Numbered from the stretch's first letter, positions 23,651 to 36,300 are shown. The stretch is DNA of 42,029 nucleotides from a virus (IMGVR_UViG_3300042301_001326:1-42029), one strand, 5' to 3'. The notes: a model not told the origin generated them from the sequence alone. Program-made: numbers and translations.

Positions 23651-24082
23651 TTACCGTCTACCGATTTTTTTAAAATCATTAATTTCGATAGCTTTAGGTT
23701 TCTTTTCATCTGGAACTACCTTTTCAATCGAAATAAGTAGCATTCCATCAACAAGATGACACTCTTTTGTAACCATATATTCTGCTAGAGAGAATGTTCT
23801 TGTGAACTTTCTACCAGCGATTCCTTTATGTAAGTATTCACCATCTGTTTCAGGAAGTTCTCCTTCTACCGTCACACAGCAATCTTCTTCTGTAATGGTT
23901 AGATTTGATTTGTTGTATCCAGCTACCGCTAATTCAATAATGAAGTTCTCATCATTTACTTTTCTTACGTTATATGGAGGAAAACTCGTAGAGTTTGTCC
24001 TTGACATTTCTTCGAACTTAGGAAATAGACTATCCCATCCGATCATATATGGGCTATTAAAGCTCCATGCGTTTGTTACCAT
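23651..24082 (-). CDS. Hsp20 / alpha-crystallin small heat-shock protein
   Basis: The 143-residue protein has the alpha-crystallin domain at residues about 35-128: FIIELAVAGYNKSNLTIT, CCVTVEGELPET, KFTRTFSLAEYM and a GMLLISIEKVVPDE strand, with the usual Asp/Gly spacing. It ends with a KAIEI tail that fits the I-x-I type C-terminal motif. Small heat-shock proteins hold unfolded proteins without ATP; phages sometimes encode them, probably aiding virion assembly. AAAGGAGC precedes ATG at 24082. It is the most upstream gene of the late block here. Confidence 0.9.
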   Translation of the reverse strand: MVTNAWSFNSPYMIGWDSLFPKFEEMSRTNSTSFPPYNVRKVNDENFIIELAVAGYNKSNLTITEEDCCVTVEGELPETDGEYLHKGIAGRKFTRTFSLAEYMVTKECHLVDGMLLISIEKVVPDEKKPKAIEINDFKKIGRR

Positions 24083-24356: not shown

Positions 24357-24485
24357 ATAATTCACCCTAATTAAAAGTCTTTGATCCTGGCAAAATATTC
24401 ACCCTAGATAAAAGTAGCTCTTTTACCAAAATATTCACCCTACCCAAAAAGAGCTCTTTTCTGTTAATATTCACCCTGTGGATAA
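24357..24485 (+). repeat. Iterons AATATTCACCCT with DnaA-like box
   Basis: Four copies of AATATTCACCCT start at 24357 (ATAATTCACCCT, imperfect), 24394, 24430 and 24466, spaced 37, 36 and 36 bp. A 14-bp palindrome AAAAGAGCTCTTTT lies at 24447-24460. The last copy runs into TGTGGATAA (24477-24485), the reverse of the DnaA box TTATCCACA. Layout is like iteron origins or partition sites. Confidence 0.75.
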
Positions 24486-24535: not shown

Positions 24536-24564
24536 CCAAAATTGTCAGACCCTAATGATAGGTT
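24536..24564 (+). promoter_or_regulatory. Early promoter 1 of the TGTCAnACC family
   Basis: CCAAAA, a 17-bp spacer with TGTCAGACC (24543-24551) and ending TGA, then TAGGTT (24559-24564). It is the weakest -10 of the set and drives the 24659 gene through a leader of about 90 nt with a tandem repeat. Confidence 0.55.
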
Positions 24565-24586
24565 TATCTTATAAACAAGGTTAAGT

Positions 24587-24632
24587 ATGAGCCTAGCAAA
24601 TAAGCCCGCAAGGGATGAGCCTAGCAAATAAG
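24587..24632 (+). repeat. Tandem 18-bp repeat in the 5' leader
   Basis: ATGAGCCTAGCAAATAAG occurs at 24587-24604 and 24615-24632, 10 bases apart. Each copy reads as a tiny frame M-S-L-A-N-K, so it could be a duplicated leader peptide start or RNA element. Confidence 0.7.
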
Positions 24633-24658
24633 ACTAACCACTAACGGAAGGCAACTCT

Positions 24659-24781
24659 ATGAATGAGTTAGCATTAGAGAACATCACTAAGACTAAGTGT
24701 CTTGAGTGTGGTGACAACCTGACCTCTTGGGAAACAACAGGCTATTGCATTATCTGCGAGCCTGATGAGTATGACATCTAG
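24659..24781 (+). CDS. Zinc-ribbon microprotein (40 aa), copy 1
   Basis: MNELALENITKTKCLECGDN begins a 40-residue protein with two CxxC pairs (CLEC, CIIC), enough to bind one zinc. The 36-residue product at 25307 is a close paralog (shared MNELALE-IT-CL-CGD pattern), so this gene duplicated locally. CGGAAGGC lies before the start. Function unknown; zinc ribbons of this size usually bind nucleic acid or proteins. Confidence 0.7.
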   Translation: MNELALENITKTKCLECGDNLTSWETTGYCIICEPDEYDI

Positions 24782-24815
24782 GCATACCGCCCGACACGCC
24801 CGAGAGGGGCGACCC

Positions 24816-24824
24816 TGTGGATAA
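24816..24824 (-). repeat. DnaA-box-like TGTGGATAA
   Basis: This is the reverse of TTATCCACA, identical to the box at 24477-24485, next to a GGGGCGACCC hairpin. Confidence 0.5.
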
Positions 24825-24876
24825 CTAAGCATTAAGTATATGTGACGTAACTCACTGAAATTATGGCGTGTCTGGC

Positions 24877-24905
24877 TTGATAATGTCAGACCTATCTGCT
24901 AAGGT
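24877..24905 (+). promoter_or_regulatory. Early promoter 2 of the TGTCAnACC family
   Basis: TTGATA, 17-bp spacer holding TGTCAGACC (24884-24892) and ending TGC, then TAAGGT. A TCACTGAAAT half-element lies upstream at 24852-24861. It drives the 24934 gene. Confidence 0.8.
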
Positions 24906-24933
24906 GAAACCATAAGATGAAACGAGGTGCTAG

Positions 24934-25077
24934 ATGATTTACTTACACTTAGACCCCTTTGAGGGACTGCTATGTGAGTGTGGCGACTTTGCCTACACTC
25001 GTGAGGTTAATGCTTTCGGTAACGAAATGACTGACCTATGTGACTACTGCTGTGAAATGGCTTTTGTCTTAGCCTAA
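24934..25077 (+). CDS. Cys-rich microprotein (47 aa)
   Basis: MIYLHLDPFEGLLCECGDFA starts a 47-residue protein with CEC and CDYCC clusters, a probable zinc ribbon. It lies between two family promoters, so it is a single-gene unit. I do not recognise a family. Confidence 0.65.
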   Translation: MIYLHLDPFEGLLCECGDFAYTREVNAFGNEMTDLCDYCCEMAFVLA

Positions 25078-25101
25078 ATTGTCAGACCTCTATGATAAGG
25101 T
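25073..25101 (+). promoter_or_regulatory. Early promoter 3 of the TGTCAnACC family, leaderless
   Basis: CCTAAA, 17-bp spacer with TGTCAGACC (25080-25088), then TAAGGT ending 6 nt before ATG at 25108. The -35 overlaps the stop codon of the previous gene. Confidence 0.7.
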
Positions 25102-25107
25102 AAAACT

Positions 25108-25251
25108 ATGAATCAAACACTAAAGAAACTAATCGAATACATAGCCCCTAATGGTGCCTTTGTATCTGCCCTTGTTACCTACCACATTGGTTGCGGTACC
25201 TGTGAGGTTGCCTATGCCAAGTCAAGTGTTACCCGTCATTGGGAACACTAA
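25108..25251 (+). CDS. Small protein (47 aa), function unknown
   Basis: MNQTLKKLIEYIAPNGAFVS starts a 47-residue protein with a helix, then CGTC and a basic end (SSVTRHWEH). No ribosome binding site is seen, in line with its leaderless promoter. Family unknown. Confidence 0.6.
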   Translation: MNQTLKKLIEYIAPNGAFVSALVTYHIGCGTCEVAYAKSSVTRHWEH

Positions 25252-25276
25252 AACTGTCACACCCCTATGCTATGGT
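25248..25276 (+). promoter_or_regulatory. Early promoter 4 of the TGTCAnACC family
   Basis: CTAAAA, spacer with TGTCACACC (25255-25263) ending TGC, then TATGGT. The fifth core position is C instead of G. It drives the genes from 25307. Confidence 0.65.
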
Positions 25277-25306
25277 AATACCATAACAACAACGAAAGGC
25301 TATTCA

Positions 25307-25417
25307 ATGAATGAACTAGCACTAGAACAAATCACTAAGGCTACCTGCCTAGTGTGCGGTGATAAGTTAGCACCGTTTGAACTATCCAACTCTATCTGTA
25401 TTTTGTGTGAGGACTAA
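25307..25417 (+). CDS. Zinc-ribbon microprotein (36 aa), copy 2
   Basis: MNELALEQITKATCLVCGDK starts the paralog of the 24659 product, with CLVC and CILC pairs. The upstream in-frame extension to 25151 overlaps the previous gene and a promoter, so ATG at 25307 after CGAAAGG is the better start. It begins a three-gene run with 25420 and 25583. Confidence 0.7.
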   Translation: MNELALEQITKATCLVCGDKLAPFELSNSICILCED

Positions 25418-25419
25418 TT

Positions 25420-25581
25420 ATGTTGATGTATGTATCTCTAATAATCTTAGTTAATGTTGTCGCTGGGCTTAGTGCTTATGCGTATGTTGCAATAAAGGAA
25501 CTAAAGTCTAGTCGTGCTATGTGGCAACAAGCCTACACGTCATTGGCTATCGAACTAGAATTAGAAAAGAGTTGGAAATAA
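25420..25581 (+). CDS. Single-span membrane microprotein (53 aa)
   Basis: MLMYVSLIILVNVVAGLSAY forms one membrane helix at the N-terminus, followed by a charged helical cytoplasmic tail (IKELKSSRAMWQQAY). It starts 2 nt after the previous stop. Function unknown; an inner-membrane small protein. Confidence 0.65.
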   Translation: MLMYVSLIILVNVVAGLSAYAYVAIKELKSSRAMWQQAYTSLAIELELEKSWK

Positions 25582-25582
25582 A

Positions 25583-25660
25583 ATGGAAGTCTTAATTATT
25601 ATTTTGTTGTCCATACTTTTATTTGGTGCTATGTCTAGTGATGGTAAGGGAAAGTTCTAG
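25583..25660 (+). CDS. Membrane microprotein (25 aa)
   Basis: MEVLIIILLSILLFGAMSSD is a single hydrophobic helix with a short Lys-rich tail. It starts 1 nt after the previous stop and ends just before a hairpin terminator, so the three genes 25307-25660 form one operon. Being so short it could be chance, but coupling supports it. Confidence 0.5.
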   Translation: MEVLIIILLSILLFGAMSSDGKGKF

Positions 25661-25670
25661 GCTTGACAAA

Positions 25671-25690
25671 GCCCCCGAAAGGGGGCGACC
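25671..25690 (+). terminator. Hairpin GCCCCC-GAAA-GGGGGC
   Basis: A 6-bp GC stem with a GNRA-type loop directly after the operon stop, followed by GACCCC rather than a T tract. The same sequence block occurs at 26436-26451. It probably ends or protects the transcript. Confidence 0.6.
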
Positions 25691-25711
25691 CCAAAGCTAG
25701 GCAAATGTCAA

Positions 25712-25740
25712 TTACGACACGCCCGAAAAATCACTGAAAT
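25712..25740 (+). promoter_or_regulatory. Bipartite element TTACGA-N13-TCACTGAAAT
   Basis: One of 11 full copies in the early region. Here TTACGA is at 25712-25717 and TCACTGAAAT at 25731-25740, just upstream of promoter 5. Confidence 0.7.
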
Positions 25741-25755
25741 TATAGGGTGTCGCTA

Positions 25756-25784
25756 CCAAAAATGTCAGACCCTTATGCTATGCT
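25756..25784 (+). promoter_or_regulatory. Early promoter 5 of the TGTCAnACC family
   Basis: CCAAAA, spacer with TGTCAGACC (25763-25771) ending TGC, then TATGCT. It drives the 25817-26425 operon. Confidence 0.7.
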
Positions 25785-25816
25785 AAAAGCATACAAACAA
25801 ACGAAAGGATTTCAAA

Positions 25817-26032
25817 ATGAAATCACTAGATACAGAAAAATACATTCAAGCCCACGATAATTTGGGTCGTTACCGTTACCCAAGTTCCTATGACAATCGT
25901 CTAGCATACGTTTCGCTATCTGCAATTCTTGCGGAGTGCATCAACCAAAGATTAGGGTTTAATCAAATCCAAAAGATGCTAGATGAAATGACCCAAAACG
26001 AAATCAACTTACTAGAAAGGTTGTCAAAATAA
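25817..26032 (+). CDS. Small helical protein (71 aa), function unknown
   Basis: MKSLDTEKYIQAHDNLGRYR starts a soluble, charged, helical protein with YSLSAILAECINQRLGF-like helix and MLDEMTQNEINLLERL coiled end. CGAAAGGA precedes ATG. It heads a four-gene chain joined by TAATG overlaps. Confidence 0.75.
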   Translation: MKSLDTEKYIQAHDNLGRYRYPSSYDNRLAYVSLSAILAECINQRLGFNQIQKMLDEMTQNEINLLERLSK

Positions 26033-26196
26033 TGACACGCAAAGACTACATTGAAATCGCAAAAGTGCTTAACAATAATCTAACAGACACCAACTATGCA
26101 CTAATTGAAAAACTAACAAAAGATTTTGCAGTGATGTTGAAATCAGATAATCAAAACTTTGACAAGACACGATTTGAAAATGCGGTGATGAAATAA
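26032..26196 (+). CDS. Small helical protein (54 aa), function unknown
   Basis: MTRKDYIEIAKVLNNNLTDT starts a 54-residue helical protein. Its ATG shares a base with the TAA of the gene before and its TAA with the ATG of the gene after. Similar small helical proteins are widespread in actinophages; role unknown. Confidence 0.75.
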   Translation: MTRKDYIEIAKVLNNNLTDTNYALIEKLTKDFAVMLKSDNQNFDKTRFENAVMK

Positions 26197-26345
26197 TGCT
26201 AAAAGAGTTTATCGGTCTTGAGTGTGTTGCGTGTAAAGATAAAATGAACTATGACTACCCAGCATTTTATCCAACTTGGTCAGATTTCTATGACAACATT
26301 GTGTGCGAGGATTGCGATAACAAAAACAAGAGAGCAGGATTTTAA
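26196..26345 (+). CDS. Zinc-ribbon microprotein (49 aa)
   Basis: MLKEFIGLECVACKDKMNYD starts a 49-residue protein with CVAC and CEDC pairs about 28 residues apart, a probable zinc ribbon, and a basic Lys/Asn end. TAATG-coupled on both sides. Confidence 0.72.
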   Translation: MLKEFIGLECVACKDKMNYDYPAFYPTWSDFYDNIVCEDCDNKNKRAGF

Positions 26346-26425
26346 TGAACAGTTTTTATTCTTGGGTTTTAATTTTATCCCTTGCAGGTTTTATTTATTT
26401 GCTAGTGGATAGATACACCGACTAG
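26345..26425 (+). CDS. Membrane microprotein (26 aa)
   Basis: MNSFYSWVLILSLAGFIYLL is one membrane helix with a short VDRYTD tail. It closes the operon, coupled by TAATG to the gene before, and ends just before a hairpin. Confidence 0.55.
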   Translation: MNSFYSWVLILSLAGFIYLLVDRYTD

Positions 26426-26435
26426 GCTTGACAAA

Positions 26436-26457
26436 GCCCCCGAAAGGGGGCGACCCC
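26436..26457 (+). terminator. Hairpin GCCCCC-GAAA-GGGGGC, second copy
   Basis: Same GNRA-looped hairpin and flanking GCTTGACAAA as at 25671, followed by GACCCC. The repeated block suggests duplication of the whole terminator-promoter cassette. Confidence 0.6.
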
Positions 26458-26475
26458 TAGCTCGCCCCAGATCAA

Positions 26476-26505
26476 TTACGACATTAAGGTGTGAGTCACT
26501 GAAAT
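26476..26505 (+). promoter_or_regulatory. Bipartite element TTACGA-N14-TCACTGAAAT
   Basis: TTACGA at 26476-26481 and TCACTGAAAT at 26496-26505, upstream of promoter 6. Confidence 0.65.
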
Positions 26506-26508
26506 CAC

Positions 26509-26537
26509 GGGAAATTGTCAGACCCTTATGCTAAGAT
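26509..26537 (+). promoter_or_regulatory. Early promoter 6 of the TGTCAnACC family
   Basis: GGGAAA, 17-bp spacer with TGTCAGACC (26516-26524) ending TGC, then TAAGAT. It drives the 26567 gene. Confidence 0.75.
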
Positions 26538-26566
26538 GAAATCATCATCAACCGTTAGGAAAAAAA

Positions 26567-26719
26567 ATGTATTCATTTCAAGATGTTGACTTTGCAACCG
26601 AAATCCTTTTGGATGAGGTGTTCGCCTTTGATGAAGGTCTTGAGCAGGAGTTTGAACTAGATGATGAAATGCCTGAAGATGCAGGAATGGAAGGCTATCT
26701 GTTTGGTTGGGACTCATAG
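26567..26719 (+). CDS. Strongly acidic small protein (50 aa)
   Basis: MYSFQDVDFATEILLDEVFA starts a 50-residue protein in which about a third of residues are Asp or Glu, with almost no basic residues. Very acidic small phage proteins often mimic DNA or block host DNA-binding proteins; that role is only a possibility here. It is a one-gene unit between two hairpins. Confidence 0.7.
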   Translation: MYSFQDVDFATEILLDEVFAFDEGLEQEFELDDEMPEDAGMEGYLFGWDS

Positions 26720-26732
26720 CCCACCACCCCAC

Positions 26733-26743
26733 GGGGTCGCCCC
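26733..26743 (+). terminator. Hairpin GGGGTCGCCCC
   Basis: Short GC hairpin after the acidic gene, the reverse complement of the GGGGCGACCCC core found in other cassettes. A run of T at 26748-26751 follows. Confidence 0.5.
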
Positions 26744-26762
26744 CCAGTTTTGAAAAACCCTT

Positions 26763-26791
26763 TTACGAAACACCCAAAATGTCACCGAAAT
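26763..26791 (+). promoter_or_regulatory. Bipartite element TTACGA-N13-TCACCGAAAT
   Basis: TTACGA at 26763-26768 and TCACCGAAAT at 26782-26791, directly touching promoter 7. Confidence 0.65.
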
Positions 26792-26813
26792 TGTCAGACC
26801 TCTATGCTAAGAT
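26785..26813 (+). promoter_or_regulatory. Early promoter 7 of the TGTCAnACC family
   Basis: CCGAAA, spacer with TGTCAGACC (26792-26800) ending TGC, then TAAGAT. It drives the 26843 gene; the -35 overlaps the bipartite element. Confidence 0.75.
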
Positions 26814-26842
26814 GATACCATCAACCAATCGAAAGGGACACT

Positions 26843-27094
26843 ATGTTCACTCTACACAACCCAATGAAAGTGATGAACGAGAACTATGTCGTTACATCAC
26901 ACCCTTGCCCAATGTGTGGCGATACCGTAACTGTCAGAATTACATCTGATAAGTTATTTGCATACCGTCAAGGTGCTTATGCCCAAGACGTGTTGTCTGC
27001 CTATGATGCTGACGTGCGTGAGCGTTTCATTAGTGGAGTGTGTGGAGTTTGCTGGACTGAAATGTTTAGCGATGCTGACTGGGATGAGGAGTAA
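26843..27094 (+). CDS. Actinophage zinc-finger protein (83 aa)
   Basis: MFTLHNPMKVMNENYVVTSH starts a protein with HPCPMCGDTVTV near residue 21 and VCGVCW near residue 70, a split zinc ribbon, separated by a helical segment (LFAYRQGAYAQDVLSAYDAD). This C-x-x-C-G-D ... S-G-x-C-G-x-C-W layout is common in actinobacterial phages but has no assigned function. Confidence 0.8.
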   Translation: MFTLHNPMKVMNENYVVTSHPCPMCGDTVTVRITSDKLFAYRQGAYAQDVLSAYDADVRERFISGVCGVCWTEMFSDADWDEE

Positions 27095-27119
27095 AAATGT
27101 CAGACCTCTCTGCTAAGAT
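27091..27119 (+). promoter_or_regulatory. Early promoter 8 of the TGTCAnACC family, leaderless
   Basis: GTAAAA (overlapping the previous stop), spacer with TGTCAGACC (27098-27106) ending TGC, TAAGAT ending 7 nt before ATG at 27127. Confidence 0.7.
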
Positions 27120-27126
27120 AAATCCT

Positions 27127-27261
27127 ATGATGAAATTACCTGCAAGCCCTGAGCAACTTAGGGCAAGACTAGAATTGCGTAGGAGCAACGCTTCTGCCAA
27201 ACACCGTAACAAAAAGAAATACACCCGTAAGTCAAAATACAAAAACCTACTAGGAGAATAA
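27127..27261 (+). CDS. Very basic small protein (44 aa)
   Basis: MMKLPASPEQLRARLELRRS starts a 44-residue protein whose second half is Lys/Arg/Asn-rich (AKHRNKKKYTRKSKYKN), so it likely binds nucleic acid. A double ATG follows a leaderless promoter. Its end supplies GGAG for the next gene. Confidence 0.7.
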   Translation: MMKLPASPEQLRARLELRRSNASAKHRNKKKYTRKSKYKNLLGE

Positions 27262-27262
27262 A

Positions 27263-27565
27263 ATGGGACTAAACTTCGCAACAGAATTATCCGCTATGGA
27301 TACTATGCCTATGGAACAGCAGATTAACCTGCACCTGCAATACAATTTCTATCCACCAATCCCGTCATCTATGGTACAGCCTTGCGTTGATGCTATTAAC
27401 GCTTATTGGAATGAGGACATCTATGCAGAAATAGAAATGCCACAAGGAGTTTCCTATCGTGGAATGACTACTGCACCTGCACACGCAATCGTTGAGCAAC
27501 ACCGCTTAGACGCTTGGGTAATGGAAGATGAATACTATGAAGAAGATGAGGACTTCAATGTTTAA
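27263..27565 (+). CDS. Small acidic protein (100 aa), function unknown
   Basis: MGLNFATELSAMDTMPMEQQ starts a helical protein with a Pro-containing core (FYPPIPSSMVQPCVDAINAY) and a very acidic tail (DEYYEEDEDF). It follows the previous stop by 1 nt with TAGGAGAAT as ribosome binding site, and overlaps whiB. Related proteins occur in actinophages; role unknown. Confidence 0.78.
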   Translation: MGLNFATELSAMDTMPMEQQINLHLQYNFYPPIPSSMVQPCVDAINAYWNEDIYAEIEMPQGVSYRGMTTAPAHAIVEQHRLDAWVMEDEYYEEDEDFNV

Positions 27566-27767
27566 CTTTAATGACATAGCCTGTAAAGATGTAGACACAA
27601 ACTTATTCTTTAGCGAACTAAAGTCTAAGGTAGAAAAAGCAAAAGCAATCTGCAACTCTTGCCCTGTAAAGTCAGAGTGTTTAGAGTTTGCATTAAATGA
27701 CGGTATCGAGTTTGGTATTTTTGGTGGAGTCACCGCAGACGAAAGGAAAGCACTTGTTTCAAACTAA
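27558..27767 (+). CDS. whiB: WhiB-family iron-sulphur regulator
   Basis: The 69-residue product from ATG at 27558 (GAGG 8 nt upstream) has the four WhiB cysteines C9, C32, C35 and C41 and the G-x-x-GG turn as GIFGG (usually GIWGG, so Trp to Phe). It lacks a long basic C-terminal tail, leaving only ERKALVSN. WhiB proteins bind a 4Fe-4S cluster and pair with the host principal sigma factor; phage copies can reprogramme host transcription or immunity. WhiB is confined to Actinobacteria and their phages. It may act at the family promoters described here; that is inference. Confidence 0.92.
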   Translation: MFNFNDIACKDVDTNLFFSELKSKVEKAKAICNSCPVKSECLEFALNDGIEFGIFGGVTADERKALVSN

Positions 27768-27945
27768 TCTAATTGTAAACTTTACTAACGGAGAATCTAA
27801 AACTTATTTAGACGTACACCCTGACCAACCAATGTTTATTGAAAAGGGAACGCTAACTTTAGAAACCACAAACGGTGAAATGATTTGGTACATACCAGCC
27901 GTTTCAATTCTTGACTACTACACGGAGTGTGTGAGGGTGTCATGA
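27754..27945 (+). CDS. Small beta-type protein (63 aa)
   Basis: TTG at 27754 with AAAGGAAA upstream overlaps the end of whiB; it gives a 63-residue protein with a LIVNFTNGESKTYLDVHPDQ strand pattern and TLETTNGEMIWYIPAVS. An F-x-N/D-G-x-x-K-T-Y pattern like this recurs in actinophage proteins of unknown role. A longer frame to 27697 is unlikely. Confidence 0.65.
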   Translation: MFQTNLIVNFTNGESKTYLDVHPDQPMFIEKGTLTLETTNGEMIWYIPAVSILDYYTECVRVS

Positions 27946-27956
27946 TCCAGGAAGCT

Positions 27957-27968
27957 GGGGGCGACCCC
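27957..27968 (+). terminator. Hairpin GGGGGCGACCCC
   Basis: GC-rich stem with a GCGA loop in the gap after the 27127-27945 operon; no T tract follows. Confidence 0.5.
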
Positions 27969-27987
27969 ATAATTGCCAAAATGTCAA

Positions 27988-28016
27988 TTACGAAAAGATT
28001 AAAAACTCACTGAAAA
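27988..28016 (+). promoter_or_regulatory. Bipartite element TTACGA-N13-TCACTGAAAA
   Basis: TTACGA at 27988-27993 and TCACTGAAAA at 28007-28016, upstream of promoter 9. Confidence 0.65.
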
Positions 28017-28022
28017 AATCAC

Positions 28023-28051
28023 TTGAAATTGTCAGACCTTTGTGGTAATGT
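28023..28051 (+). promoter_or_regulatory. Early promoter 9 of the TGTCAnACC family
   Basis: TTGAAA, 17-bp spacer with TGTCAGACC (28030-28038), then TAATGT. It drives the eight-gene run 28079-29237. Confidence 0.8.
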
Positions 28052-28078
28052 ATACACATAACCTACTAAGGAGAATAA

Positions 28079-28195
28079 ATGTCAGAATTACTGATTAACT
28101 TATTTGAGGGTGTCATTGATGAGCAAGCCCTTGAGAAATTATCTAAAGAAGAATTAGATGCAATCAACAAAATGCTAACGGAAGCAGGTTACTAA
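28079..28195 (+). CDS. Helical microprotein (38 aa)
   Basis: MSELLINLFEGVIDEQALEK starts a 38-residue acidic amphipathic protein with two short helices. AAGGAG precedes ATG by 6 nt. It heads the operon; function unknown. Confidence 0.7.
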   Translation: MSELLINLFEGVIDEQALEKLSKEELDAINKMLTEAGY

Positions 28196-28196
28196 A

Positions 28197-28535
28197 ATGG
28201 GTGCAAGAATTAACTATGTCTTTGATGACGGAACAGAATCACTAACAGTTTTGTATTCACACTATGGTGAGTACACTTGGGAAGATGATTTAGTGGGTGC
28301 ATTAGCACACGCACAACCACGCCACCGTGATTATTCTTACTTTACCCGTATGATTATTTCATACTTGATTCAAGATGCTGTACTAGCCCCAACAGGTTTT
28401 GGTATTTATAGTATTGCACGTTCAGAAATTACAGAACTATTTGACAAGGTAGTCGTATTAGACTTAGTACACGATACGGTTACTGATTTAGACAATAACA
28501 CTTCAATTCCATTCTATTCGGAGGTAATGGCATAA
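28197..28535 (+). CDS. Soluble protein (112 aa), function unknown
   Basis: MGARINYVFDDGTESLTVLY starts a mixed alpha-beta protein with YFTRMIISYLIQDAVL helix and an acidic C-terminal part. The INYVFDDGT...VLYSHYG segment recurs in actinophage early proteins. It starts 1 nt after the previous stop and ends TAATG-coupled to the next gene. Confidence 0.75.
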   Translation: MGARINYVFDDGTESLTVLYSHYGEYTWEDDLVGALAHAQPRHRDYSYFTRMIISYLIQDAVLAPTGFGIYSIARSEITELFDKVVVLDLVHDTVTDLDNNTSIPFYSEVMA

Positions 28536-28684
28536 TGGCACAAATGAAAACTATTGAAATGATTCTAATGGAAAGCCACCCAAATGGTATCTTTAATGAG
28601 CAAGATGTATGGGAAGCAATTGCAGAAGCAACTGGTATGGACTATTCAGAAATTGCAGATGGAGATTTAACAGAATGGCTATAA
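28535..28684 (+). CDS. Acidic helical microprotein (49 aa)
   Basis: MAQMKTIEMILMESHPNGIF starts a 49-residue protein with IFNEQDVWEAIAEATGMDYS, possibly one small helical domain. TAATG-coupled upstream; its last codons overlap the next start. Confidence 0.7.
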   Translation: MAQMKTIEMILMESHPNGIFNEQDVWEAIAEATGMDYSEIADGDLTEWL

Positions 28685-28809
28685 AATTATGTAATAATTG
28701 TGGGGACACAGTGGCTAGTCATAATCTGTATGGGTGCTGTGCCGAACCATTAGAGTCTAGCCTGTCTTGCGGTAACTCTTACCGTAAGTGTATGGATTGT
28801 GAGGGATAA
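28675..28809 (+). CDS. Cys-rich zinc-binding microprotein (44 aa)
   Basis: MAIKLCNNCGDTVASHNLYG starts a 44-residue protein with CNNC, a CC pair, a single C and CMDC, seven cysteines in all, so it may bind one or two zinc ions. It overlaps the previous gene by 10 nt and shares TAATG with the next. Confidence 0.72.
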   Translation: MAIKLCNNCGDTVASHNLYGCCAEPLESSLSCGNSYRKCMDCEG

Positions 28810-28925
28810 TGAAATTATTTAATCGTAAGCAAGAAGATACATTTACTAAGTTAGATAGACTAATGAGTGAGATGGCTAGTACAGAAACATACGTTGCATA
28901 CCTCCGTGAAAGGGAGGGTATGTAA
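28809..28925 (+). CDS. Charged helical microprotein (38 aa)
   Basis: MKLFNRKQEDTFTKLDRLMS starts a 38-residue charged helix. TAATG-coupled to both neighbours. Function unknown. Confidence 0.62.
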   Translation: MKLFNRKQEDTFTKLDRLMSEMASTETYVAYLREREGM

Positions 28926-29029
28926 TGGAAATCTTCTATGGTATTATCTTAATGCTTTTGGTATTAGGTGCTGTTTCTTCGGTAGCATTTATATCAGACA
29001 AATACGAAAGTAGAGACGATGAATTATAA
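28925..29029 (+). CDS. Membrane microprotein (34 aa)
   Basis: MEIFYGIILMLLVLGAVSSV is a single membrane helix, followed by a charged tail. GGGAGGG lies before ATG inside the previous gene; it overlaps the next gene by 11 nt. Confidence 0.6.
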   Translation: MEIFYGIILMLLVLGAVSSVAFISDKYESRDDEL

Positions 29030-29237
29030 ATACGCAGATAAACTTTCAGGCTACCAGCTAGAGCCTGGGGATCTAATAACATTTGATAGCATAGAGGAAC
29101 CCGTTCAAATTAAAAGCATTGACATTCTTCAAGATGGATATCAAATAAACTACTTAGATGAATATGGGGACGAAGAGTTACACTACTATGTTGGTGAAGA
29201 TGATATTGTAAACCTATACGTCTATGATGAGGACTAA
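29019..29237 (+). CDS. Acidic SH3-like small protein (72 aa)
   Basis: MNYKYADKLSGYQLEPGDLI starts a beta-rich protein: QLEPGDLITFDSIEEPVQIK, then DGYQINYLDEYG, a pattern typical of small SH3-like barrels. It is strongly acidic. Last gene of the operon, before a T-tract terminator. Confidence 0.7.
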   Translation: MNYKYADKLSGYQLEPGDLITFDSIEEPVQIKSIDILQDGYQINYLDEYGDEELHYYVGEDDIVNLYVYDED

Positions 29238-29257
29238 GGGGTCGCCCCATTTTTTTG
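29238..29257 (+). terminator. Rho-independent terminator GGGGTCGCCCC + T8
   Basis: A 4-bp GC stem with TCG loop is followed by ATTTTTTTT. It shows that the GGGG(TCG/CGA)CCCC block can be a real terminator. Confidence 0.72.
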
Positions 29258-29267
29258 GATTTGTCAA

Positions 29268-29297
29268 TTACGACACTCCGAAAAAATTCACGGAAAT
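29268..29297 (+). promoter_or_regulatory. Bipartite element TTACGA-N14-TCACGGAAAT
   Basis: TTACGA at 29268-29273 and TCACGGAAAT at 29288-29297, upstream of promoter 10. Confidence 0.65.
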
Positions 29298-29312
29298 ATT
29301 TGTAAAAAGGGG

Positions 29313-29341
29313 TTGAAAATGTCAGTCCTTTATGCTAAGAT
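29313..29341 (+). promoter_or_regulatory. Early promoter 10 of the TGTCAnACC family
   Basis: TTGAAA, 17-bp spacer with TGTCAGTCC (29320-29328) ending TGC, then TAAGAT: the closest match to a strong promoter in the set. It drives the 29375 gene alone. Confidence 0.82.
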
Positions 29342-29374
29342 GTTAGCATAACAACAAACAGAAAAGAGAAGCAA

Positions 29375-29533
29375 ATGGCTAAATTAACTGCCCCAACTGT
29401 TGGCTCACAGTTCACAACCGCTAAGTCTGGCGTGACTGGAGAAGTCAAGGAAGTAATCAAGAACCAGACAGGTTCCTTGCGTATCCGTCTTGATGTAAAT
29501 GGTCAAGACCGTTGGACTACTGTAACTAAGTAG
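29375..29533 (+). CDS. Small beta-barrel-like protein (52 aa)
   Basis: MAKLTAPTVGSQFTTAKSGV starts a 52-residue basic protein with GVTGEVKEVIKNQTGSLRIR and LDVNGQDRWTTV strands, like a small OB or SH3 barrel. Own strong promoter and strong terminator predict high early expression. The pattern G-x-x-F-T-x-x-x-S-G-x-x-G is common in actinophage small proteins. Confidence 0.75.
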   Translation: MAKLTAPTVGSQFTTAKSGVTGEVKEVIKNQTGSLRIRLDVNGQDRWTTVTK

Positions 29534-29545
29534 TTAAATAAGTTT

Positions 29546-29578
29546 AGGTGGGGTGTTCCTTACCCTTGCACCCCACCT
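29546..29578 (+). terminator. 10-bp hairpin terminator
   Basis: AGGTGGGGTG (29546-29555) pairs perfectly with CACCCCACCT (29569-29578), loop 13 nt. No T tract follows; promoter 11 begins right after. Confidence 0.75.
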
Positions 29579-29606
29579 TAAAACTGTCACACCTACCTGC
29601 TAAGAT
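29578..29606 (+). promoter_or_regulatory. Early promoter 11 of the TGTCAnACC family
   Basis: TTAAAA, spacer with TGTCACACC (29585-29593) ending TGC, then TAAGAT. No bipartite element is present before it. Confidence 0.72.
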
Positions 29607-29635
29607 AAACTTACCTACAAAACAAGGAGACCCAA

Positions 29636-30121
29636 ATGGGACTAGACATGTATCTTCGTGCGAATGAGTATGTATCACGCAACGACTGGACTCGTAATGA
29701 CAACGGTGAATTAGTTGATAGCCCTAATTCATTGTTTACACAAATTGTTGAAACTCTTGAGTTAGAAAACATTATTGACAATACTGGCTTTGCTGGAATG
29801 AGCATTGACCTTCCTATGGGTTACTGGCGTAAGGCTAATCAAATCCATAACTGGTTTGTAACTAACTTAGCAGACGGTGTTGATGAGTGTCAGGTAATTA
29901 CTGTACGCAGAGAAGACCTAGAGCAACTTAAAGAATTGTGCATTGAAGTTCTTGCAAACAAATCACTTGCAGAAGATTTATTGCCAACAGGTGCAGGTTT
30001 CTTCTTTGGTTCAACAACTTATGATGAATACTATTATTCTGACTTGAATGACACCATTGGTATTATTACTAAGTGTCTTGAAAGTAAGTTTGATTACTTT
30101 GAGTACCAAGCATCTTGGTAG
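29636..30121 (+). CDS. MGLDMYL-type conserved phage protein (161 aa)
   Basis: The protein starts MGLDMYLRANEYVSRNDWTR, contains YWRKANQIHNWFV and a C-terminal FFFGSTTYDEYYYSDLND. Proteins beginning MGLDMYL with a YWRK-N-x-IHxWF block occur in many phages and bacteria; their function is unknown to me. AAGGAG precedes ATG. Being well conserved, it probably has a housekeeping-like phage role. Confidence 0.85.
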   Translation: MGLDMYLRANEYVSRNDWTRNDNGELVDSPNSLFTQIVETLELENIIDNTGFAGMSIDLPMGYWRKANQIHNWFVTNLADGVDECQVITVRREDLEQLKELCIEVLANKSLAEDLLPTGAGFFFGSTTYDEYYYSDLNDTIGIITKCLESKFDYFEYQASW

Positions 30122-30141
30122 TAGGTTAAGCCGAAACCAAA

Positions 30142-30160
30142 ACCTGCCACCCACGCAGGT
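30142..30160 (+). terminator. Hairpin ACCTGC-N7-GCAGGT
   Basis: A 6-bp perfect stem after the 29636 gene and before the tRNA, followed by an A-rich stretch. It may be a weak terminator or an RNA processing signal. Confidence 0.5.
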
Positions 30161-30208
30161 AAAATAAAGGGGAGACTCCTAAGCATGAGTTATAAACTGC
30201 TTACCATT

Positions 30209-30282
30209 GGTCTGGTGGCTCAGTTGGTTAGAGCACCGCCCTGTCACGGCGGAGGTCGTGGGTTCAAGTCCCATCCAGATCG
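30209..30282 (+). tRNA. tRNA-Asp (GTC anticodon)
   Basis: A complete cloverleaf: acceptor stem GGTCTGG/CCAGATC (one G-T wobble), D arm GCTC/GAGC with AGTTGGTTA loop, anticodon stem CCGCC/GGCGG with loop CTGTCAC giving GTC, variable AGGTC, T arm GTGGG/CCCAT with TTCAAGT. The discriminator base is G as in tRNA-Asp. CCA is not encoded. Its product could supply GAC/GAT decoding for the very Asp-rich early proteins. It is followed at once by a terminator. Confidence 0.95.
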
Positions 30283-30290
30283 CAAGAGCT

Positions 30291-30307
30291 GGGGTCGCCC
30301 CATTTTT
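30291..30307 (+). terminator. Terminator GGGGTCGCCCC + T5 after the tRNA
   Basis: Same short hairpin as at 29238, followed by ATTTTT, 8 nt after the tRNA end. Confidence 0.7.
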
Positions 30308-30320
30308 CTCCATTTGTCAA

Positions 30321-30349
30321 TTACGAAACACCCAAAAAATCACGGAAGT
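30321..30349 (+). promoter_or_regulatory. Bipartite element TTACGA-N13-TCACGGAAGT
   Basis: TTACGA at 30321-30326 and TCACGGAAGT at 30340-30349, upstream of promoter 12. Confidence 0.65.
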
Positions 30350-30364
30350 TTATCTAATTTAGTA

Positions 30365-30393
30365 TTGATAATGTCAGACCTGTATGCTATGAT
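30365..30393 (+). promoter_or_regulatory. Early promoter 12 of the TGTCAnACC family
   Basis: TTGATA, 17-bp spacer with TGTCAGACC (30372-30380) ending TGC, then TATGAT. Strong match; drives the DUF932 gene. Confidence 0.82.
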
Positions 30394-30424
30394 TAGTTTA
30401 TCAAACACAAACAAAGGAATAAAA

Positions 30425-31420
30425 ATGTCAATAGACCAAATTGAAATCATTGACGGCAAGGCATCATACGCTTCCTTGCGTGTACCTGCCTACCACCAAC
30501 TTGGAACTGTATTTCAAGAAGAGGTAAAAACCTCAGAGATGCTAGAACTAGCAAACCTTCATAACTGGAATGTACGCCTTGAAGATGTTGCACTACCTGA
30601 TAGTTACACATCAGTTAAGTCTAACTTTATGGTTGTTCGTGACCACCCGTCAGACGGTCATGGAGAAGTGCTATCTGTTGTAGGTGAACGCTACAAAGTT
30701 TTGCAGAATGAAGAACTATTTGCATTTGGTGATAACTTGCTTGACGGTGGACGTTGGGAAGTTGCTGGTTCTCTAAAGCAGGGTAGACTTGTCTTTGGTG
30801 CATTAGCACTTGAGCGTGAAACCGTACTTGACCCTAATGGCGTTAGTGATGTAATCAAGAACTACCTTGCTATCTCTACAAGCCATGACGGTTCTAGTGC
30901 TGTTCAAGCAACTGTTACCCCAATCCGAATGACCTGCATGAACACACACACCGCAGTATTCCGAAAGGGTGCAAAGCAGTCTTTCAAGTTGCGTCACACT
31001 CAGTCATTAGACGGACGTGTTGCACAGGCTCGCCAAGCACTTGGTCTTGCCAACACTTACATTGACGAGTTTGAAGTTATGGCTAAGGCTATGATTGAAA
31101 AGCAAATCACCAAAGACACATTTGCAAAGATTGTTGCAACCGCTTACCCAATGCCAGACAAAGATACAAAGGGTGCTATGACCAAGTGGGAAACAAAAGT
31201 TGATTTGCTAGATGAAATCTATGGTGGTGACACTAACGGAATGATTGCTGGAAATGCGTGGGGTGCTTACAACGCACTAACAGAACGCCTAGACTGGTAT
31301 CGTCCTGCTCGTGGTAGTAACAACGAGGGTATCCTAATGGGTGCAAGTGGTTTTGACCCTGCAACCAATGCAGAAAAAAATCGTCTGCTGTCCATTGTTA
31401 AGGAGTTGGTGGGAGTTTAA
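30425..31420 (+). CDS. DUF932 / phage-plasmid-like protein
   Basis: The 331-residue product from ATG at 30425 (AAAGGAAT upstream) matches the DUF932, TIGR03299-type family by YASLRVPAYHQLGTVF, FMVVRDHPSDGHGEVLSVVG, YKVLQNEELFAFGDNLLDGG, AISTSHDGSSAVQATVTPIR and CMNTHTAVF. The longer frame to 30185 runs through the tRNA and promoter and is not real. The family is found on phages and plasmids next to replication or recombination genes; its biochemical role is not established. It is expressed from a strong promoter. Confidence 0.9.
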   Translation: MSIDQIEIIDGKASYASLRVPAYHQLGTVFQEEVKTSEMLELANLHNWNVRLEDVALPDSYTSVKSNFMVVRDHPSDGHGEVLSVVGERYKVLQNEELFAFGDNLLDGGRWEVAGSLKQGRLVFGALALERETVLDPNGVSDVIKNYLAISTSHDGSSAVQATVTPIRMTCMNTHTAVFRKGAKQSFKLRHTQSLDGRVAQARQALGLANTYIDEFEVMAKAMIEKQITKDTFAKIVATAYPMPDKDTKGAMTKWETKVDLLDEIYGGDTNGMIAGNAWGAYNALTERLDWYRPARGSNNEGILMGASGFDPATNAEKNRLLSIVKELVGV

Positions 31421-31430
31421 TCTCCCACCA
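31407..31430 (+). terminator. Hairpin enclosing the DUF932 stop codon
   Basis: A 9-bp stem (31407-31415 with 31422-31430) has the loop TTTAAT, so the TAA stop lies at the hairpin tip. It may slow or protect the transcript end. Confidence 0.65.
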
Positions 31431-31433
31431 CAA

Positions 31434-31467
31434 CCCAATCCCTGACTTGACAAAGTTGGGGATTGGG
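31434..31467 (+). terminator. Second hairpin after DUF932
   Basis: CCCAATCCC (31434-31442) pairs with GGGATTGGG (31459-31467), enclosing ACTTGACAAAG-type sequence seen at other cassettes; GGCGACCC follows. Confidence 0.6.
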
Positions 31468-31489
31468 GGCGACCCTTAAAGCTTCCCAA

Positions 31490-31530
31490 TTACGAAGCAT
31501 TAAAAAGATCACCAGAAAATTCACTGAAAT
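31490..31530 (+). promoter_or_regulatory. Bipartite element with doubled second half
   Basis: TTACGA at 31490-31495 is followed by TCACCAGAAA (31509-31518) and again by TCACTGAAAT (31521-31530), upstream of promoter 13. Confidence 0.6.
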
Positions 31531-31535
31531 TACTA

Positions 31536-31564
31536 TTGTTTTTGTCACACCTCTGTGCTAGTAT
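31536..31564 (+). promoter_or_regulatory. Early promoter 13 of the TGTCAnACC family
   Basis: TTGTTT, 17-bp spacer with TGTCACACC (31543-31551) ending TGC, then TAGTAT. It feeds a structured leader. Confidence 0.75.
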
Positions 31565-31572
31565 GTAGTCAT

Positions 31573-31640
31573 ACAGGATAGCGGAATACGACTCACGAAA
31601 GTGGAAAGAGGCAAATGGGTGAGATACCCATTTATCCTGT
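31573..31640 (+). ncRNA. Structured 5' leader, three-way junction candidate
   Basis: ACAGGATA (31573-31580) pairs with TATCCTGT (31633-31640) and encloses two smaller hairpins: CAC-GAAA-GTG (31594-31603) and AATGGGT/ACCCATT (31614-31620 with 31626-31632). It lies in the leader of the Api92-like gene, right after promoter 13. I cannot match it to a known riboswitch class. A short frame overlaps it. Confidence 0.6.
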
Positions 31641-31650
31641 AACCTACTAG
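31615..31650 (+). CDS. Possible 11-codon leader peptide
   Basis: ATG at 31615, after AAAGAGG, reads MGEIPIYPVTY and stops at 31650, 15 nt before the Api92-like start. The start lies in a hairpin arm of the structured leader, so translation would open that structure. A leader peptide role is speculation. Confidence 0.35.
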   Translation: MGEIPIYPVTY

Positions 31651-31665
31651 AAGAAAGAAGTAACA

Positions 31666-32418
31666 ATGCCAAACTGGGTATTCAATTCACTTGTTGTATC
31701 AGGCGAACAGTCAGAGTTAGATAAAATGGTTGCACAACTTAACCAGCCATTTGAAAAACATTTTCCTGATTCAAAGTTTAATCAAGAAACAAAAGAATGG
31801 GATAAGACTCCTGCTGTTCAGGTGTATGACAATCCTGTCTTTGCATTTTGGAACATTGTAAAACCAACAGACCTTAGTGCATACTATGAAGAAGAAGTAT
31901 TTAAGAAACAAACTCTTGCCCCCGAAGAATTTATGACAGAGTTTGTTCGCTCTATGAAAGAAGACCAAGACTGGTATCATTGGAACTGCCGTAACTGGGG
32001 AACTAAGTGGGACGTAGCAGTTGTGAATGACAACGAGTATCCTAACACTATTAAAACTGTTAATGATGATGGTTCTGTTATGTATCACTTTGAAACCGCT
32101 TGGTCTCCTGTTGGTGAGGTTCTAATGAAACTATCAGAGATGTATCCTACTCTTGAGTTTGACTATGAGTATGAGGAAGAGACTGGCTGGGGTGGCAGTT
32201 GCACATTCGTAGGTGGAGAAGACATAGCCTGTGATGAGTATGATACCCCAATGTCACACGCTGACCACAAAGACAGAGACAAGGAATGTATCTGTGAGTA
32301 TGGAGACCCAGAGAATGGCTATGAAGATTGTCCTATTGACACTACTAAGTTTAATTGGAATAAAGATGAAGAAGAATGGCAAGAGATTTCTATTGACAAT
32401 ACCGCCCAAGTACGATAA
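31666..32418 (+). CDS. Api92-like / DUF1281-type protein (250 aa)
   Basis: The protein starts MPNWVFNSLVVSGEQSELDK, the classic opening of DUF1281/Api92-like ferredoxin-fold proteins, and has NCRNWGTKWDVAVVNDNEYP and FETAWSPVGEVLMKLSEMYP blocks of that family, plus a Cys/Asp-rich C-terminal extension (CICEYGDPENGYEDCP). The family is carried by phages and plasmids; its function is unclear. Expression goes through the structured leader at 31573. Confidence 0.88.
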   Translation: MPNWVFNSLVVSGEQSELDKMVAQLNQPFEKHFPDSKFNQETKEWDKTPAVQVYDNPVFAFWNIVKPTDLSAYYEEEVFKKQTLAPEEFMTEFVRSMKEDQDWYHWNCRNWGTKWDVAVVNDNEYPNTIKTVNDDGSVMYHFETAWSPVGEVLMKLSEMYPTLEFDYEYEEETGWGGSCTFVGGEDIACDEYDTPMSHADHKDRDKECICEYGDPENGYEDCPIDTTKFNWNKDEEEWQEISIDNTAQVR

Positions 32419-32449
32419 ACTATTACTACAACCTACAAAGGAGCACAAC

Positions 32450-32971
32450 GTGGATTTTCCAATCCCAGCAACTGTAACACAAATGCCAGAATCAAATGCA
32501 ACATTCGTTAAAGAAATGGTAGAGGCAGGAGAACTTAAGCCTCTCTATGACCCAAAGGCAACTATCGTTGTCCGAAAGGGTTACTACTACGGAACACCGT
32601 CAGATGCAAAGTATGACCTAGAAAATGCAGACGACATTTCCAGAGCGTTTTGGAGAGTAGATGCACTACAATCAACCAACAACAGCAACTCAAAAGCACA
32701 AGACAAGTTAAAAGATTATCTTGTTGAGAACTTTGATGAAATTGGTGAAGAACACGCAAATGCAATTGCAAACATCTTTGGAATGGATTTGTCTAAAGAA
32801 GTTGAAGTTGAGTTTAATGTAACAATCAAGGCAACTGTTTCAATGCCTATCAATGAAGATGTGTCTGACTTAAGCATCTATGACTTTAACGTTACAATTG
32901 AATCAAATGAATCTAACTATGAGATTCTAGACTTTGATGCAGACATTGATTCAATAGATGAACGATACTAG
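32450..32971 (+). CDS. Acidic actinophage protein (173 aa), function unknown
   Basis: GTG at 32450 with AAAGGAG 7 nt upstream gives VDFPIPATVTQMPESNATFV. A longer frame to 32231 lies inside the previous gene. The N-terminal half has VVRKGYYYGTPSDAKYDLEN, the middle a helix (KLKDYLVENFDEIGEEHANAI), the C-terminal half alternating acidic beta strands (VEVEFNVTIKATVSM). It is 31 nt downstream of the Api92-like gene and co-transcribed. Confidence 0.75.
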   Translation: MDFPIPATVTQMPESNATFVKEMVEAGELKPLYDPKATIVVRKGYYYGTPSDAKYDLENADDISRAFWRVDALQSTNNSNSKAQDKLKDYLVENFDEIGEEHANAIANIFGMDLSKEVEVEFNVTIKATVSMPINEDVSDLSIYDFNVTIESNESNYEILDFDADIDSIDERY

Positions 32972-32972
32972 A

Positions 32973-32991
32973 TTTCCTAGTAGGTAGGAAA
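32973..32991 (+). terminator. Hairpin TTTCCT-N7-AGGAAA
   Basis: A 6-bp stem just after the 32450 gene. Weak; a possible transcript end or processing site. Confidence 0.4.
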
Positions 32992-33052
32992 GATGTGGAG
33001 GCGATAACCACAATTCAAAAACACCACCCACCACTAGTAAAGGAAAAAGGAA

Positions 33053-33214
33053 ATGGCTAAAAAGTTATTTATTGCAGAAGAAAAGTGGATGACACGATTC
33101 GGCAAGTCTGATCGTGTAGTCGTGCGAGATGCCAACGGTCACTTTGTTGACAATGTATCCAAGCGACAAATGAAGACTGGCGAACGTGAACTACCTTATG
33201 TAGCAAGTCGCTAA
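33053..33214 (+). CDS. Basic small protein (53 aa)
   Basis: MAKKLFIAEEKWMTRFGKSD starts a basic protein with RVVVRDANGHFVDNVSKRQM, a strand pair that may form a small DNA- or RNA-binding barrel. AAAGGAAA precedes ATG. It lies before a strong terminator; no separate promoter is seen, so it belongs to the promoter 13 operon. Confidence 0.72.
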   Translation: MAKKLFIAEEKWMTRFGKSDRVVVRDANGHFVDNVSKRQMKTGERELPYVASR

Positions 33215-33229
33215 TCTAAAAAATAGATG

Positions 33230-33256
33230 CCCCCTGTTTCCCAGCAGGGGGTTTTT
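33230..33256 (+). terminator. Strong Rho-independent terminator
   Basis: CCCCCTG (33230-33236) pairs with CAGGGGG (33245-33251), 8-nt loop, followed directly by TTTTT. The clearest terminator in the early region. Confidence 0.93.
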
Positions 33257-33260
33257 CTAT

Positions 33261-33282
33261 GCCCCAAGCTGGGGGCGACCCC
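33261..33282 (+). repeat. GCCCC-AAGCT-GGGGGCGACCCCC hairpin block
   Basis: A second GC hairpin with the GGGGGCGACCCCC core follows the terminator 5 nt later. Since the transcript already ends upstream, this copy argues the block has another role or is a cassette remnant. Confidence 0.5.
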
Positions 33283-33296
33283 CAGAAATGCTCTAG

Positions 33297-33325
33297 TTAC
33301 GAAGAGACCAAAAATTCACGGGAAT
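33297..33325 (+). promoter_or_regulatory. Bipartite element TTACGA-N13-TCACGGGAAT
   Basis: TTACGA at 33297-33302 and TCACGGGAAT at 33316-33325, upstream of promoter 14. Confidence 0.65.
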
Positions 33326-33341
33326 CTAGAGCAAATCACTA

Positions 33342-33370
33342 TTGTAAATGTCATACCCTTGTGGTAGGAT
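33342..33370 (+). promoter_or_regulatory. Early promoter 14 of the TGTCAnACC family
   Basis: TTGTAA, 17-bp spacer with TGTCATACC (33349-33357), then TAGGAT. It drives the long operon from 33400. Confidence 0.75.
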
Positions 33371-34421: not shown

Positions 34422-34654
34422 GTTACCAACATCATTGGGTAGTCGTCTATGACGAGGATTGGGGAGCTTTCATGGTAGATGCTGAAACCACCAACGTAAT
34501 GCTAGAAGAGGGTGACGGAACTATTTATAATAAAACTACTGGACATTGGGAGTTTGCAGAAGAGGGTTCAGAAGAATTAGCTGAATATCAGAGGCTAGAA
34601 GAAATCCTGGCTTATAACCTAACAAGACTTGACTTAACCGCAGGAATAGGATAA
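34418..34654 (+). CDS. Acidic small protein (78 aa)
   Basis: From ATG at 34418 (ATGA overlap) the protein reads MSYQHHWVVVYDEDWGAFMV, with a beta-hairpin core (GTIYNKTTGHWEFAEEG) and a helical end. The longer frame to 34364 lies inside the zinc-ribbon gene. Its 3' end contains the next promoter. Confidence 0.72.
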   Translation: MSYQHHWVVVYDEDWGAFMVDAETTNVMLEEGDGTIYNKTTGHWEFAEEGSEELAEYQRLEEILAYNLTRLDLTAGIG

Positions 34655-34657
34655 GAT
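34629..34657 (+). promoter_or_regulatory. Internal leaderless promoter
   Basis: TTGACT (34629-34634), a 17-bp spacer and TAAGAT (34652-34657) end 7 nt before ATG at 34665. It lies inside the end of the previous gene and lacks the TGTCAnACC core, so it may escape the shared control. Confidence 0.65.
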
Positions 34658-35311: not shown

Positions 35312-35481
35312 TGGATAAAGAGATTAATAAGTTTATTAGACATACCATTACTAATCTGCAAGGTGCCTTAATGCAAGATGAGGACCAATTAACCTTAGCA
35401 GTCTTAGTTAATCTAGAGGGTGTCATAGATACCTACATAGAAGCACTTGAGTATGCCCTTGACAATCCCACCGAAAACTGA
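35311..35481 (+). CDS. Small helical protein (56 aa)
   Basis: MDKEINKFIRHTITNLQGAL starts a 56-residue protein with two long helices, probably a helical hairpin or dimer. Its last codons contain the TTGACA of the next promoter. Confidence 0.7.
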   Translation: MDKEINKFIRHTITNLQGALMQDEDQLTLAVLVNLEGVIDTYIEALEYALDNPTEN

Positions 35482-35487
35482 TACACT
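35459..35487 (+). promoter_or_regulatory. Promoter TTGACA-17-TACACT
   Basis: A consensus -35 TTGACA (35459-35464), 17-bp spacer ending CTGA, and TACACT (35482-35487). It lacks the TGTCAnACC core and drives the 35508 gene, so it may be active when the other family is repressed. Confidence 0.7.
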
Positions 35488-36179: not shown

Positions 36180-36210
36180 AAATGATTAATAATAGATTAG
36201 TTTCTGATAG

Positions 36211-36261: not shown

Positions 36262-36278
36262 TAAATTATATGCACATT

Positions 36279-36294: not shown

Positions 36295-36300
36295 GGGATA

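Follow-up and report, generated by a model that had tools for sequence, protein, structure and literature searches.

A TGTCA core locked to the -10 box of fourteen promoters in an actinophage gene block resembles the -26 element of PafBC promoters

What kind of factor reads the TGTCANACC core that recurs among the small genes of the IMG/VR virus record IMGVR_UViG_3300042301_001326:1-42029? This window, the whole stretch of 42,029 bases that we analysed (~38% G+C), carries on its - strand, up to ~24.1 kb, genes for portal, capsid and tail proteins, for a class II ribonucleotide reductase and for a glycosyltransferase, and from there on a run of small + strand genes. A sequence-only reading had placed fourteen promoters in this run, each with the core inside a 17-bp spacer between -35 and -10, and had taken the core for the operator of one regulator controlling the whole early region, by analogy with the stoperators of cluster A mycobacteriophages. 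The fourteen coordinates were correct (13 exact copies of TGTCANACC, plus TGTCAGTCC at 29320); we favour, with a probability of about 0.6, the reading that these sites are not repressor operators and are activator-dependent promoters of the PafBC type, in which the host's PafBC, or a host factor much like it, reads a -26 element.

The core, its -10 box and the missing -35

All fourteen sites lie on the + strand, the - strand having none, and all fit TGTCA-N8-TGnTAnnnT, in which TGTC begins 16 nt before TAnnnT, as at PafBC promoters, and TG occupies the extended -10 position. They are, with predicted start sites:

24543-24564, + strand: core promoter 1, TGTCAGACC..TGA TAGGTT, start 24571, no -35
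24884-24905, + strand: core promoter 2, TGTCAGACC..TGC TAAGGT, start 24912, -35 TTGATA
25080-25101, + strand: core promoter 3, TGTCAGACC..TGA TAAGGT, start 25108, the ATG of an open reading frame (leaderless)
25255-25276, + strand: core promoter 4, TGTCACACC..TGC TATGGT, start 25283
25763-25784, + strand: core promoter 5, TGTCAGACC..TGC TATGCT, start 25791
26516-26537, + strand: core promoter 6, TGTCAGACC..TGC TAAGAT, start 26544
26792-26813, + strand: core promoter 7, TGTCAGACC..TGC TAAGAT, start 26820
27098-27119, + strand: core promoter 8, TGTCAGACC..TGC TAAGAT, start 27126/27127, an ATG (leaderless)
28030-28051, + strand: core promoter 9, TGTCAGACC..TGG TAATGT, start 28058, -35 TTGAAA
29320-29341, + strand: core promoter 10, TGTCAGTCC..TGC TAAGAT, start 29348, -35 TTGAAA
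29585-29606, + strand: core promoter 11, TGTCACACC..TGC TAAGAT, start 29613
30372-30393, + strand: core promoter 12, TGTCAGACC..TGC TATGAT, start 30400, -35 TTGATA
31543-31564, + strand: core promoter 13, TGTCACACC..TGC TAGTAT, start 31571
33349-33370, + strand: core promoter 14, TGTCATACC..TGG TAGGAT, start 33377

Fourteen matches to this pattern compare with 0.22 expected (300 first-order Markov simulations, maximum 3), and the pattern read backwards had no match in the window. The distance from core to -10 is thus as rigid as the sequence-only reading had held, and a TGn extended -10 followed the core at all 14 sites; the other half of its proposed spacer, the -35, is mostly missing. TTGATA or TTGAAA stands 17 bp upstream of the -10 at only 4 of the 14 sites (24884, 28030, 29320 and 30372), a weak TTG stands there at two more (31543 and 33349), and the remaining 8 have CCAAAA, CCTAAA, GGGAAA, GTAAAA and similar. 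A consensus scan at 16-18 bp spacing listed two of the fourteen (29313-29341 and 30365-30393), so that as a set they are not canonical sigma-A promoters. Because a TTGA-type -35 occurs at only four of the fourteen sites, the core mostly replaces the -35. Of 695 sites in relatives, 15 have TTGAC and 91 have TTGA at a spacing of 16-18 bp.

These two properties bear directly on the repressor reading, in which one phage repressor would shut all core promoters as in cluster A. It is true that asymmetric sites lying in many promoters, all along the direction of transcription, resemble stoperators (PMC9283540); however, the repressor sites of cluster A are found in intergenic DNA away from promoters as well (PMC9283540), whereas every exact TGTCANACC in the window (13 of 13) is joined to a -10 at the same distance and none lies off one. 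In addition, the core accompanies loss of the -35, the window (itself an incomplete record) yielded no candidate repressor, and in the 388 sites from relatives described below the core keeps a constant distance from the -10, which a repressor would not need. We therefore find the stoperator analogy unsupported and consider a repressor operator the least probable explanation, and a very improbable one: a core placed exactly at a -10, mostly in lieu of the -35, is how an activator-dependent, sigma-adaptation promoter is built. The earlier proposal that one DNA-binding factor reads the core remains probable.

Extended -10 promoters can function without a -35, and as all fourteen sites have TGn one might suppose that no special factor is involved and that the host's sigma-A polymerase itself favours this type of spacer beside an extended -10. 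We regard this as improbable, since the conserved positions, -28 to -20, are farther upstream than the known contacts of an extended -10, and the same phages also have ordinary TTGAC promoters (161 at 17-bp spacing versus 29-83 at other spacings).

The letters of the core point to PafBC. The mycobacterial PafBC (RecA-NDp) promoter is tTGTCRgtg-8nt-TannnT (PMC5656591), and the variants accepted in Mycobacterium tuberculosis are TGTCAG-N10-TA-N3-T and TGTCAC-N10-TA-N3-T (PMC8151990). The window has TGTCAG in 9 sites and TGTCAC in 3, plus TGTCAGTCC, so that TGTCAG or TGTCAC is found in 13 of 14 and the G and C forms equal the two M. tuberculosis variants letter for letter; the core continues with ACC in the window and with TGG in sister lineages, and the M. 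tuberculosis variants do not require gtg. PafBC reprograms the sigma-A polymerase: the helix-turn-helix (HTH) of PafB reads the -26 motif, that of PafC grips sigma domain 4, and single-stranded DNA in the WYL domains is the trigger (PMC11804915). As the PafC HTH holds sigma domain 4, a -35 is not needed at such promoters (PMC11804915), and the 10 of 14 sites without a TTGA-type -35 fit this trait of the class. The PafBC mechanism predicts promoters that lack a -35 and have an asymmetric core at a fixed distance from the -10; both PafBC as the factor and its presence in the host are, at this stage, what we infer from sequence.

Under such a mechanism the housekeeping sigma-A RNA polymerase would grip the extended -10 (TGC-TAAGAT), and an activator with a WYL domain, the host's PafB-PafC being the likeliest, would be placed between promoter and sigma domain 4, reading TGTCAG or TGTCAC at -28 to -23 and standing in for the absent -35. 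Single-stranded DNA made early in infection may then switch PafBC on, so that the gene block fires.

The box could instead be read, by the same logic, by a different host activator (a WYL homodimer, or a sigma-adaptation factor of the WhiB or SARP type). Several actinobacterial factors work via sigma region 4, the ACC extension is unlike the mycobacterial gtg, and SiwR, likewise an activator of the WYL kind, has its binding site between -35 and -10 (PMC10693628). However, the SiwR site is a 19-bp palindrome (PMC10693628) and the core here is asymmetric, and both the letters and the distance of TGTCRG-N10-TAnnnT are those of PafBC; we judge this alternative unlikely, albeit the one to be ranked first among the rivals.

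Related phages and the source of the activator

The closest cultured relatives are Streptomyces phages of the Stanwilliamsviridae, with identities of ~50% (portal) and ~51% (DUF932 protein). In ~2.4 Mb of related contigs (overlaps included) we found 388 non-redundant sites at the core spacing versus 7-37 at eight other spacings. An ACTGT-N10 control peak was the core motif shifted by two and no real failure of the control. The core is thus conserved rather than varying freely among close relatives, and 82% of the 388 sites have TGTCRG. These site collections share ancestry, their redundancy being reduced and not fully removed; the related records are fragments, as the window's own record is partial, and many loci were fetched by the motif search itself, so that counts per record are no census. 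The spacing comparison and the leaderless set described below are independent of this motif-based fetching. Sites in the relatives form strand-biased clusters, often close to contig ends, and their cores fall by lineage into three types: TGTCAGACC as in the window (41 of its 46 copies in ten relatives stand exactly at a -10); TGTCTGACC (G001 and G021); and TGTCRGTGG, the textbook form, in sister phages (9 of 11 sites in L171, 11 of 16 in L172).

Start-site features in the relatives match those of promoters. The base 7 nt past the -10, the predicted +1, is A in 76% of the 388 sites and is preceded by a pyrimidine in 83%; ATG codons, with open frames checked, peak 7 nt past the -10 (leaderless) and again at ~30 nt, the place expected for a Shine-Dalgarno-led start. 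By the 7-nt rule the promoters at 25080 and 27098 are leaderless in the window. This signature looks real, which suggests that the core sites are indeed promoters. We also gathered 220 leaderless promoters without using the core (219 after an edge filter), in which the sole strong upstream signals were TGTC at -28 (53) and TTGA(C) at 17-bp spacing (37), which makes two promoter classes. Among the 219, 41 had TGTC only, 39 a relaxed -35 only, 12 both and 127 neither; relaxed -35s over all 219 were not depleted relative to chance, and strict TTGAC occurred together with TGTC in only 2.

Could the phage itself supply the activator, a sigma-appropriating protein like MotA/AsiA of T4 whose box replaces the -35? 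The anatomy of box and -10 without -35 is the same (PMC6755090), and the motif varies by phage lineage. Among 34 shared protein families, however (each in at least 7 sampled records; reading frames of 60 aa or more), 33 also occur in the Streptomyces relatives, and the lone family absent from these is tail-fibre-like and has a member in a motif-free record too. No regulator family among the 34 tracks with the motif, the records being incomplete. Searches for a WYL domain in the window and 49 other records found none, and HTH_11 and sigma region 4 gave nothing above cut-off among the phages searched. Several candidates were discarded: a phage-encoded sigma factor gave weak sub-threshold matches only, one conserved HTH protein in the shared set is the terminase small subunit, and the sole conserved MerR-like HTH protein is also present in the motif-free Streptomyces phage Riptide. 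Phage-encoded sigma appropriation is thus also unlikely, and placed second among the alternatives; with no phage family tracking with the core and no such domains above cut-off, a host factor is the better guess.

Several points weigh against the PafBC reading itself. The dominant TGTCAGACC of the window deviates from the mycobacterial gtg after TGTCAG. About 13% of the sites in relatives also have a TTGA -35, and some of these may fire without an activator. The cultured relatives lack the box as a class: TGTCRG-N7-TGnTAnnnT has no match in six cultured Streptomyces members of the family; two more distant Rhodococcus relatives had 0 and 1, the latter alongside one control match. The host is known as actinobacterial only, and binding of PafBC at the cores, the possession of PafBC by the host and the box at host repair genes are predictions.

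The gene block, its upstream elements and repeats

The host assignment is suggested by a WhiB-like gene, which lies in the small-gene block with a DUF932 gene:

27558-27767, + strand: WhiB-like gene (phrog_472, 2.2e-18)
30425-31420, + strand: DUF932 gene, driven by core promoter 12

When the region was compared with known phages by megablast, no match was found. A strict contig scan for the motif, aimed at the host, gave one match, within a coding region of a Cytophagaceae metagenome-assembled genome, which we judged to be chance. In Riptide a counterpart of the small-gene block, with roughly one promoter for each gene, lies inside the terminal direct repeat, and by this synteny the block in the window is presumably expressed early. 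The earlier claim that the regulator controls the whole early region needs narrowing: the core marks most of one early-type block, but canonical TTGAC promoters without the core occur further on:

34629-34657, + strand: canonical promoter, TTGACT-N17-TAAGAT, near the ATG at 34665
35459-35487, + strand: second canonical TTGAC promoter

Two further genes were noted: one for a small heat-shock protein, HSP20, that opens the - strand block (23651-24082, - strand; Pfam 3e-14), and one at 37162-37710 for an HslV/proteasome-type peptidase-like phage protein (PHROG 1040, 1.5e-19; Pfam Proteasome weak), an unusual gene beside a host regulator linked to the proteasome.

TTACGA and/or TCACnGAA precede 9 of the 14 core promoters, and in 7 the halves are joined as a bipartite element, TTACGA-N13/14-TCACnG:

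25712-25736, + strand: bipartite element, helically phased to the core
26476-26501, 26763-26787, 27988-28012, 29268-29293, 30321-30345 and 33297-33322: further copies, with promoters

TTACGA stands 29, 40, 42, 51, 51, 52, 52 and 53 bp upstream of the core in the window, and in relatives it is phased at ~10.7 bp (65 found versus 8.5 expected). Also enriched upstream in relatives were TTAAGAA, DnaA boxes (29 versus 2.7 expected) and CRP-type palindromes (25 versus 2.2 expected); TTAAGAA and DnaA boxes have a period near 11 bp, and the phasing of the CRP type is weak. As the expected counts average coding and non-coding sequence together, the enrichment partly reflects intergenic versus coding DNA; the phasing is not so explained. 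Helical phasing suggests a protein touching the polymerase from one face, and the phased element probably binds a second regulator. CRP/GlxR-like palindromes (TGTGA-N6-TCACA type) were seen in the related loci L021, L037, L046 and L054 at preferred distances of 44, 49 and 54 bp upstream of TGTC-class promoters. Three copies of TTACGA-N12/15-TCACnG (35813, 36009 and 36301) have no TGTC core downstream, one being followed by TTGACA, so that the upstream element is not tied only to core promoters.

DnaA-like boxes precede the first two core promoters:

24477-24485, + strand: DnaA-box-like TGTGGATAA, GTGGATAA 65 bp before the core at 24543
24816: second DnaA-like box, 67 bp before the core at 24884

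Directly upstream of core promoter 1, and followed by the DnaA box, region 24360-24477 holds four direct repeats with ATTCACCCT, 36-37 bp apart (24360, 24397, 24433 and 24469), which, lying between the divergent gene blocks, resemble iterons or an array of operators. An AT-rich region at 36180-36510, with repeated ATGCATTTTATGCA-like words and then three - strand DnaA boxes (near 36474, 36487 and 36508), is a candidate replication origin.

Implications and comparison with known systems

More broadly, we suggest tentatively, at somewhat less than even odds, that a widespread freshwater actinophage family swapped the -35 of a whole gene block for the host's PafBC -26 element, so that a host sensor of single-stranded DNA meant for DNA repair became an infection sensor and early activator for the phage, with phased upstream DnaA and CRP-like sites tuning it further in relatives. 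If true, a phage lineage would have a gene block wired to the host's LexA-independent DNA-damage activator, which would hint at how these phages sense productive infection; hundreds of natural PafBC-type promoters would become available for defining the tolerance of the -26 element; and repair genes of poorly cultivable freshwater actinobacteria should carry the same box. Among the listed literature on PafBC and phages, as judged by titles and the opening of abstracts, we found no report of PafBC-wired phage promoters.

The PafBC/RecA-NDp (P1) promoters of Mycobacterium share with these sites TGTCRG at -28, N10, TAnnnT, a dispensable -35 and an asymmetric core; they differ in that the sites here are in phages, clustered in one gene block, mostly TGTCAGACC rather than TGTCRGTG, and with a strong extended -10 (TGC). 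Cluster A operators and stoperators likewise come in many asymmetric, co-oriented copies per phage genome, but many of theirs lie outside promoters whereas the cores here are locked to -10 boxes. In T4 middle promoters an activator box near -30 also replaces the -35 before a -10 (PMC6755090); T4, however, encodes MotA and AsiA, whereas we saw no phage gene that tracks with the present box, and the letters differ. Finally, the early promoters of Riptide stand in a homologous gene block, one per small gene, but have a TTG-type -35 with TAGACT; a few of them pair TGTC at -28 with a TTG -35, and may possibly be intermediates between the two arrangements.

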